Source: an uncultured bacterium (GTDB taxonomy: Bacteria; UBP6; UBA1177). From it: a stretch of DNA of 64,000 nucleotides. Below are positions 1 through 1,735 of this stretch, piece by piece. Numbering within the stretch: position 1 is the first letter of the stretch; every line of letters begins with the position of its first letter. Under the pieces are notes generated by a model. That model saw only the letters and a list, made by a program, of their open reading frames with translations. It did no database searches and was not told the DNA's origin. The DNA lies in the NCBI GenBank assembly GCA_905233945.1, contig CAJOFY010000006.1, forward strand, positions 1-64,000, written 5' to 3'. A program made the position numbers and the translations under genes.

Positions 1-120
1 ATAAGGTTTTGTTTCATAACCGACAGGCTGCCAGTATACTTCCTTGCAGAAATCGTGAAGATATTTCAAATATTTCTGATCTATAGAAATGAATTTCAGA
101 TTATTTTTCAGAGAGAACAC
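1..120 (-). CDS. Type III toxin, ToxN/AbiQ-like, N-terminal 40 aa (runs off window start)
   Basis: Manual translation from GTG at 120: MFSLKNNLKFISIDQKYLKYLHDFCKEVYWQPVGYETKPY; matches the KFxxIxxKYIKYLKEFDxxV pattern of ToxN N-termini; RBS GAGGAAAACT upstream. Confidence 0.62.
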   Translation of the reverse strand, partial: MFSLKNNLKFISIDQKYLKYLHDFCKEVYWQPVGYETKPY

Positions 121-130
121 AGTTTTCCTC

Positions 131-160
131 AAAAAAAATAGGCTGCCCGAAAGCAGCCCT
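131..160 (-). terminator. Rho-independent terminator upstream of the toxN-like gene
   Basis: Minus strand AGGGCTGC-TTTCGG-GCAGCC-TATTTTTTTT. Confidence 0.75.
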
Positions 161-218
161 CGTTAATCTTCATCTCTTTGCGGAAATCCGCAGGTTAATG
201 GAGACCTTCCGACCAAGA

Positions 219-246
219 AGTATAGAGATGAAAATAAAAATGTCAA
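219..246 (-). promoter_or_regulatory. Sigma70-like promoter for a short RNA upstream of the toxN-like gene
   Basis: Minus strand TTGACA - 16 nt - TATACT, followed ~60 nt later by the terminator. Confidence 0.65.
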
Positions 247-311
247 GATAAAATGAAAAATTTTTCTAATTTATTTTTTATTTTTCTTGAATGCGTTTGC
301 TGCGAAACTTT

Positions 312-413
312 GACCTCACCTCTTTGAATTCCCCTCTCCAGTGTGGCGAGGGGAGTCGTCATGTTGAGCGAAGCGAAACATCTCTGACCTTGAACGGAAA
401 TGGAAATTATTTT
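312..413. repeat. Direct repeat copy 1 (79 bp core 312-390 plus 21 bp 393-413)
   Basis: 78/79 identity to 1387-1465; second shared block aacggaaatggaaattatttt. Confidence 0.9.
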
Positions 414-495
414 AACGATGCATTTTCTTAATGATGAAATTTTTTGTTGATATATATTAGAAAATCAATATTCTTAATTTGCAAAAACTGTTCAA

Positions 496-1376
496 TTGGA
501 TAATGATATGCAAAACAACACAACTAATCAATTTGATTTTAAAGAAAATGAAATAGTTTTGTATCAGCCGAATGATGCTGTTCATTTGGAAGTCAGAATG
601 GCAGACGAAACCGTTTGGCTCAGCCGTATTCAAATGGCAGAGTTGTTTGACCGTGACATCAAAACAATAGGAAAACATATCGCTAATGCACGACATGAAG
701 AATTGAAAGGACAAGTGGTGGTCGCAAAATTTGCGACTACCACTCAGCACGGAGCAATTCAAGGTAAAACACAGACACACTTGACGGAATATTACAATCT
801 TGATGTCATTATTTCCGTCGGTTACCGCGTCAAATCAAATCGGGGCGTAGAGTTTAGAAAGTGGGCAACCAGCGTTTTGAAGGACTATCTTCTTAAAGGT
901 TATTCCATAAACCAAAGGATTGAACGCCTTGAAAACCGTGTAAGCAAGACGGAAGAGAAAATAGATTTTTTGTCCGCACCTCGTTGCCGCCGGCAGAAGG
1001 AATTTTCTTCAACGGTCAGATTTTCGATGCCTATACATTTGTGTGCGACCTGATCCGCAGTGCGAAAAAACAGATAATATTGTTCGATAATTACATCGAT
1101 GACAGCGTTCTTAAAATGCTCGACAAACATAGTGACGGTGTTGATGTCAGCATTCTGACCAAAAGCGTTTCACCGCAGCTGCAGCTTGATATTGAGAAGC
1201 ACAATTCCCAATATTCTCCAATAAAATTACAAGTTTTCACAAATTCTCACGACCGCTTTCTATGCATTGATGAGACGGTTTATCACATCGGGGCATCGCT
1301 CAAAGATTTGGGCAAAAAGTGGTTCGCTTTCAATAAAATGGAAATCGATACCGAGAGCTTGATGAAAAAATTATGA
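496..1376 (+). pseudogene. RhuM family protein with PLD-like C-terminal region, split by a -1 frame change
   Basis: ORF 496-1053 carries the RhuM N-terminal region; ORF 984-1376 continues as FFVRTSLPPAEGIFFNGQIFDAYTF...HIGASLKDLGKKW in the -1 frame; T TTT TTG at 966-972. Confidence 0.75.
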
Positions 1377-1386
1377 TGGCGGCTCA

Positions 1387-1556
1387 GACCTCACCTCTTT
1401 GGATTCCCCTCTCCAGTGTGGCGAGGGGAGTCGTCATGTTGAGCGAAGCGAAACATCTCTGACCTCTCCGTCACTGCGTGACACCTCCCCTGCCTCAGGG
1501 GAGACAAGAAGCGGTAGAAATATCTTATAACTTTAAACGGAAATGGAAATTATTTT
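1387..1556. repeat. Direct repeat copy 2 with an extra 70 bp carrying hairpins
   Basis: 1387-1465 matches copy 1; 1466-1535 contains GTCACTGCGTGAC and CTCCCCTGCCTCAGGGGAG; 1536-1556 matches 393-413. Confidence 0.9.
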
Positions 1557-1735
1557 GGGGAGTAGGAGACTTCCGGTTCCGCTGCGGCGGCGAAACCGCT
1601 GTCAAGGTCGGGGTATTCGAAAGGTTTTTGCGGGTTTTTGCCGATCCGTGAGGCGATTTTCGCCATCGTTTCTTCGAAAGAGGATGATTTCAGCTCGCAT
1701 TCCCAGACAACGATCACATTCCAGCCGCTTTGTAA
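1550..1735 (-). pseudogene. Very short patch repair endonuclease (Vsr) C-terminal remnant
   Basis: Minus strand encodes SGWNVIVVWECELKSSSFEETMAKIASRIGKNPQKPFEYPDLDSGFAAAAEPEVSYSPK*, with the Vsr GW-V-VWECELK motif; no N-terminal part upstream. Confidence 0.65.

Follow-up and report, generated by a model that had tools for sequence, protein, structure and literature searches.

In the usual scheme of ToxIN-type toxin-antitoxin systems, the toxin ToxN cuts an array of antitoxin RNA repeats into monomers. Here we describe a locus in which one antitoxin RNA unit precedes toxN. It lies at the left edge of a 64,000-nucleotide (nt) stretch of DNA from an uncultured bacterium (GTDB lineage UBP6; UBA1177), which we call the window and which comprises positions 1 to 64,000 of contig C6 of genome G000 (G000:C6:1-64000). 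A tandem antitoxin array is a criterion for type III loci (PMC5086642, PMC8860590), and published surveys, which demand such an array upstream of the toxin, would miss single-unit loci by definition. In the wider family one unit can be enough, since a single CptI repeat conferred full antitoxicity when tested (PMC4627078). We consider it very probable that the window locus is a real type III-like ToxN module, in which the toxin would be neutralised by RNA and would serve in suicide or anti-phage defence.

The single RNA unit and its toxin

The locus has the order promoter, non-coding RNA, terminator and toxin, and the same order is found in relatives. Everything that an initial sequence-only reading had listed on the minus strand (TTGACA-N16-TATACT, a non-coding RNA, a terminator, a ribosome-binding site, a GTG start and the N-terminal peptide) was found in place (Table 1), as was its TGCGGA-TT-TCCGCA hairpin (192-179). 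No tandem array was found: the window has one unit, as does each of the 17 loci of this type (class C) that a covariance model located in 11 of the 15 genomes of the genus, and for this reason we file the locus as a variant rather than as canonical ToxIN. Three parts make up the unit: a core predicted to fold as a pseudoknot, an inserted hairpin whose pairs covary, and a tail; the terminator comes next. Covariation was computed on 27 distinct units and then on 52; it reached 0.189 in the inserted hairpin, against 0.073 when shuffled and at most 0.081 when the hairpin was slid, and the outer stem-1 pair was seen as A-U, U-A, G-C and G-U. Folded alone, the RNA with its terminator was more stable than shuffles (z = -3.0).

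The sequence-only reading had suspected a divergent antitoxin without repeats, which was right in substance, as the RNA holds just one copy of a unit that Lachnospiraceae carry in tandem. The word ATTAAC does occur twice, 32 nt apart (199-194 and 167-162), but the pair is not a degenerate tandem repeat. We also rejected it as the remnant of one: the first copy falls within the loop region of the pseudoknot, the second copy is the 3' tail, and the true period of the tandem relatives is ~52 nt. Rfam scans of the window locus and its siblings gave no ToxI, GOLLD or ROOL match.

Table 1. Features of the window locus and lone units in viral contigs (window coordinates unless a locus is named).
Feature	Position	Strand	Remarks
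-35 box TTGACA, antitoxin/toxin promoter	241..246	-	promoter module conserved to ~285-304 in relatives
-10 box TATACT	219..224	-	16-nt spacer to -35; the two boxes together 11/12 consensus
Single antitoxin RNA unit, 51 nt	159..209	-	covariance model R1, 74.1 bits, E 1.3e-16 in whole genome; only match in genome
Stem 1, 5' strand (AGGU)	204..207	-	pairs with 195-192 (ACCU); outer pair covaries, rest nearly invariant
Stem 1, 3' strand (ACCU)	192..195	-	as 5' strand
Candidate stem 2, 5' strand (CAUU)	197..200	-	for pseudoknot with 174-171 (GAUG); inferred from ToxI layout
Candidate stem 2, 3' strand (GAUG)	171..174	-	inferred from ToxI layout
Inserted hairpin GCGGA-UU-UCCGC, between stems 1 and 2	180..191	-	changes on both sides in 5/5 pairs
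3' tail GAUUAA	163..168	-	toxin-subtype-specific; state changes only twice (3 states) on tree of 39 toxins
Intrinsic terminator between antitoxin and toxin	131..159	-	8-bp stem 159-140 and T-run
Ribosome-binding site GAGG	127..130	-	within GAGGAAAACT 130-121
toxN, first 40 codons from GTG	1..120	-	start 120-118; continues on C28 (intact) or C41 (internally deleted)
Lone class C unit without toxN	L214:979-1034	-	viral contig
Lone class C unit without toxN	L215:2277-2330	+	viral contig
Lone class C unit without toxN	L220:10834-10886	+	viral contig
Lone class C unit without toxN	L221:8383-8436	+	viral contig

Window positions 1-301 are conserved (87-99%) in many relatives, the match ending at ~285-304, just upstream of the promoter, and a GTG or TTG start is kept. 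Because shuffles of the region yield 1.1 promoter-like sites, the promoter alone is not beyond chance; one terminator was found where 0.3 were expected. From the spacing, transcription is predicted to start at ~212, within a few nt of the 5' end of the unit. In three lineages the -10 box, as read by eye, lies 8-12 nt ahead of the GGU of the unit, and transcription should therefore start within a few nt of it.

The truncation of the toxin gene at the edge, recognised from the letters alone, was borne out. C6 is 66 kb long, in a genome of 2.65 Mb and 56 contigs, and position 1 is its physical end and not a mere window cut, so that toxN was severed by the assembly. Positions 1-76 recur exactly at the right end of contig C28 and at the left end of contig C41, and nowhere else in the genome. 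Joining C6 to C28 gives an intact 193-residue toxin from the GTG; joining it to C41 gives a broken toxin, with a window-subtype N-terminus on a body of the other subtype, an internal deletion and a frameshift. C28 holds a DUF1016_N gene (PF17761) and, near the window-type toxN, a second ToxN locus (L007) with a 3-unit array; a join of C6 to C28 would place two different ToxIN types within ~2 kb of each other.

The 40-residue window fragment alone matches PF13958 with E = 4.8e-4, below the curated cut-off. The C6+C28 protein matches it with 139 bits (cut-off 25; E 2e-40; profile positions 1-159) and also matches by sequence the crystal structures of ToxN (2xd0, 7d8o, 4ato) and AbiQ (4glk). It is identical to an intact copy in genome G014 (L055), which is carried on one contig and whose AlphaFold2 model (pLDDT 87.5) recovered the same four structures as its top PDB matches (E 2e-10 to 9e-8, TM 0.62-0.77), with CptN 4rmo fifth and far weaker (E 2e-3). 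CptN was absent among the sequence matches of the C6+C28 protein, and CptN is thus not the closest relative of the toxin. The ToxN/AbiQ identity proposed at the outset is supported by the full-length profile match, the crystal sequences and the predicted fold; the completed protein neither lacks the ToxN fold nor is unrelated by hidden Markov model (HMM) search. The active-site residues of Escherichia coli ToxN are Lys33, Thr52, Ser53 and Lys55 (PMC8860590); Lys38, Ser57, Ser58 and Lys60 of the window toxin align to them, with a Thr to Ser substitution in the site and a further change of Trp57 to Lys, and K38, S58 and K60 are invariant in 14 relatives. The toxin itself belongs to a known family and is unexceptional within it. 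Among toxins of the window subtype in the genus, dN/dS is 0.05-0.13 (dS up to 1.4), so these genes are not relics and are under purifying selection.

Distribution of the unit and its coupling to toxin subtype

All 15 genomes of the genus, whose records are mostly metagenome genomes from the ruminant gut, encode PF13958, as do 63 of 397 Lachnospiraceae genomes; 10 genomes from elsewhere in the order gave no match. Each of the 17 class C units of the genus directly precedes a PF13958 gene or what remains of one. By covariance model, 28 of 274 Treponemataceae genomes hold ~31 class C loci (one double and ~30 single), several without an intact toxin, and five of 397 Lachnospiraceae genomes have the unit, mostly double. 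Upstream of Lachnospiraceae toxins ~55% identical to the window's, one to four copies of this unit occur, arranged in tandem at a period of ~52 nt. Seven Treponemataceae units (L175, L176, L181, L183, L186, L192, L194) have lost their toxin or retain it badly broken, and are antitoxin relics.

Five RNA classes, A to E, were recognised upstream of toxN genes of the genus; their unit layouts were read by hand, and statistics did not confirm them. Class A has three 36-nt tandem units, for example on C22 and C28 of the window's genome; class B (L029, L039, L019, L022, L030) has two units of like layout and unlike sequence; classes D (L020, L021, L023) and E (L046, L047) are apparently single units. 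Most ToxN genes of the genus would then go with non-repeat or diverged-unit RNAs, and such genes are present in all 15 genomes. In both class E loci the last ~19 residues of ToxN equal the window-type C-terminus, which suggests recombination between ToxN genes. Another non-repeat layout was noticed at many Lachnospiraceae ToxN loci, in which one canonical-looking pseudoknot unit is followed by an unlike perfect hairpin (L098, L120, L126, L127, L129, L131, L135-L138, L140-L144).

The genus and Treponemataceae have two toxin subtypes, K-type (LKFI.., that of the window) and T-type (LTF..). All K-type toxins go with the RNA tail GAUUAA and all T-type toxins with CUUUAA, while the Lachnospiraceae tail is CAUUAA. 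Across a tree of 39 toxins, two changes of the tail were counted, which is the minimum for three states, against six of the hairpin and three of the lineage; the 6-nt tail tracks the toxin subtype perfectly and the hairpin does not. ToxI contacts ToxN at positions 27-28, in the tail region (PMC3475682). We propose GAUUAA as a candidate ToxN docking or cleavage site, and the coupling leads to the hypothesis that 2-3 nt at this place of contact set specificity.

Lone units in large phage contigs

A pattern scan of IMG/VR gave four viral contigs of 139-218 kb, each carrying one class C unit in non-coding DNA; model R1 scored these units at 50.4-59.4 bits (E from 3e-14 to 8e-12 in 64 kb). PF13958 was not found in the whole records of the L214 and L215 contigs, nor in the ~12.7 kb of L220 and L221 that the search covered. 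Three of the four tails read AACUUUA, the T-type tail. There are tRNA clusters close to the units of L214 and L221, and a terminase and a portal protein are encoded near that of L220. On L220, the unit is followed from 10888 onward by a second, different ToxI-like unit (CGGU-GUU-CCAC-U-ACCG-AAAAU-GUGG); both end in UUUAAUG, after which come a terminator-like hairpin and a T-run, with no toxin. A pattern scan for this second unit returned L220 and two near-identical matches that resemble protein-coding sequence and are probably due to chance; pattern matches alone are weak evidence. A protein-based scan of viral contigs gave no relative.

The L214 unit opens one of the two copies within a partly duplicated, long, non-coding and apparently structured region (L214:1-1500), next to eight tRNA genes on a 146.6-kb viral contig. 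In the phage regions, too, Rfam scans matched none of ToxI, GOLLD and ROOL, and no family fits the L214 region. We considered whether the host RNAs of L214 and L215 belong to one known giant RNA family and rejected this, as they share only the antitoxin motif and the regions are otherwise unrelated.

We read the lone phage units as candidate RNA decoys, acting as antitoxin mimics. It is close to an even call, though slightly on the doubtful side, that type III antitoxins need no repeats in this broad sense, with a single-unit family guarding ToxN in several gut lineages and lone units of large phages acting as natural RNA decoys that neutralise it. If this is true, the phage units would be the RNA counterpart to protein antitoxin mimics, and, if active, they would represent a natural RNA counter-defence against type III systems, known so far mainly from laboratory-selected escape mutants.

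Proposed mechanism, alternatives and known systems

Our model suggests that one promoter yields a short RNA that folds as a single unit, built of a pseudoknot core plus an additional hairpin and a 3' tail. Transcription would mostly end at the terminator, and read-through would yield the ToxN endoribonuclease. The 5' end of the unit is predicted to arise directly where transcription starts, and its 3' end to derive from the tail immediately ahead of the terminator; with both ends set in this way, cutting between repeats would be unneeded. Each transcript would supply one unit, which would bind ToxN at the tail and block it; protein and RNA would probably alternate around a closed ring, as they do in ToxIN and CptIN. 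When transcription stops, for example during phage infection, the RNA would decay, and the freed ToxN would cut RNA. A natural one-unit antitoxin makes it testable whether inter-repeat cutting by the toxin is needed for inhibition and assembly.

Several observations weigh against parts of this model. Stem 2 is practically invariant and shows no covariation, and a UCUC/GAGA register fits as well as CAUU/GAUG. The energy fold of the RNA is a nested structure, and a per-locus pseudoknot-template scan did no better than dinucleotide shuffles in the window and at most loci, and we give it no weight as evidence. As for the pseudoknot that the sequence-only reading had suggested looking for, the hairpin and the outer stem-1 pair covary, and stem 2 we treat as a candidate. 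The tail, the terminator and the toxin lie side by side, so plain linkage could explain the coupling of tail and toxin in place of co-evolution. Finally, the window copy may be a broken allele, as the assembly fits a join to C28 or to C41.

This last point can be extended into a locus in decay, in which C6 continues into C41, with its deleted and frameshifted toxin, and the antitoxin alone works. C41 opens with the same 76 bp as C28 and bears the deletion; broken window-type toxins also occur in G015 and G009:C10, and G013:C46 has an in-frame stop. Moreover, window 1-301 is closer to the G015 and G013 loci (99%) than to L055 (96%), whereas the C28 part is 99% like L055. Against decay stand the complete identity of the C28-joined protein with the intact G014 copy and the strong purifying selection on the toxin family as a whole, and we regard it as a reasonable possibility, although the less probable one. 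An attenuator or leader acting in cis on toxN, instead of a trans-acting antitoxin, would share the anatomy of a structured element and terminator directly upstream of a gene. Leaders, however, need not multiply in tandem before ToxN as the unit does in Lachnospiraceae, nor move geneless into phage non-coding DNA, and the tail of the unit tracks the toxin subtype; we consider this explanation very unlikely. All genus loci come from metagenome assemblies with many contigs, in which a short-read assembler might have collapsed an ordinary tandem array to one unit. The exact 76-bp overlaps among C6, C28 and C41, however, point to a k-mer near 77, which spans the 51-nt unit and both its flanks, so that promoter, unit and terminator would have been read in one stretch; single units recur at 17 of 17 loci in 11 genomes and at ~30 of ~31 Treponemataceae loci; and arrays of two to four units in Lachnospiraceae and of three class A units in the window's own genome were resolved in the same collections. 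Such a collapse is thus very improbable, and we retain the single-unit antitoxin as our reading of the locus.

Between the promoter module and segment 1572-1731, which abuts that module in several relatives, window 302-1571 looks like an insertion: it holds a RhuM-family gene (PF13310) that is frameshifted and PLD-like in its second part, with short dispersed repeats (~356-414) as flanks. Further on, a Phd/YefM antitoxin gene (PF02604; 2754-3017, plus strand) has no adjacent same-strand toxin reading frame of at least 60 residues.

The locus resembles ToxIN/AbiQ (PF13958; ToxIN_Pa 2xd0, ToxIN_Ec 7d8o, ToxN_Bt 4ato, AbiQ 4glk) in toxin family, fold and catalytic residues, in the order from promoter to toxin, and in the stem 1 GGU/ACC and loop spacing of ToxI-type units. 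It differs in having one RNA unit instead of ~2.8-5.5 repeats and a unit of 51-57 nt with an inserted hairpin instead of 34-36 nt, and the toxin has an extra segment at about residues 80-100 compared with ToxN_Pa. With CptIN (4rmo) it shares a unit longer than ToxI and, at a distance, the PF13958-like fold; the unit sequence is different, CptIN has two natural repeats and its toxin is a much weaker fold match. Like AbiF/RCd22 of Clostridioides difficile (PMC12373285), it would rely on a non-coding RNA antitoxin without processing into repeat monomers, although the toxin there, Abi_2/AbiD/F, and the RNA are unrelated. The lone phage units have a partial precedent in the pseudo-ToxI of wild-type phage PhiTE (PMC3475682), likewise a ToxI-like sequence in a phage genome without a toxin, of which expanded or recombined forms suppress ToxN; wild-type PhiTE lacks a full unit and had to expand before it worked, whereas the four phage copies described here hold a complete unit core. 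What appears new against the literature, in a comparison that leaves out the 2012 survey, which might list the tandem form, is the complete lone phage unit and the non-repeat antitoxin, the latter because tandem repeats were the search criterion of surveys.
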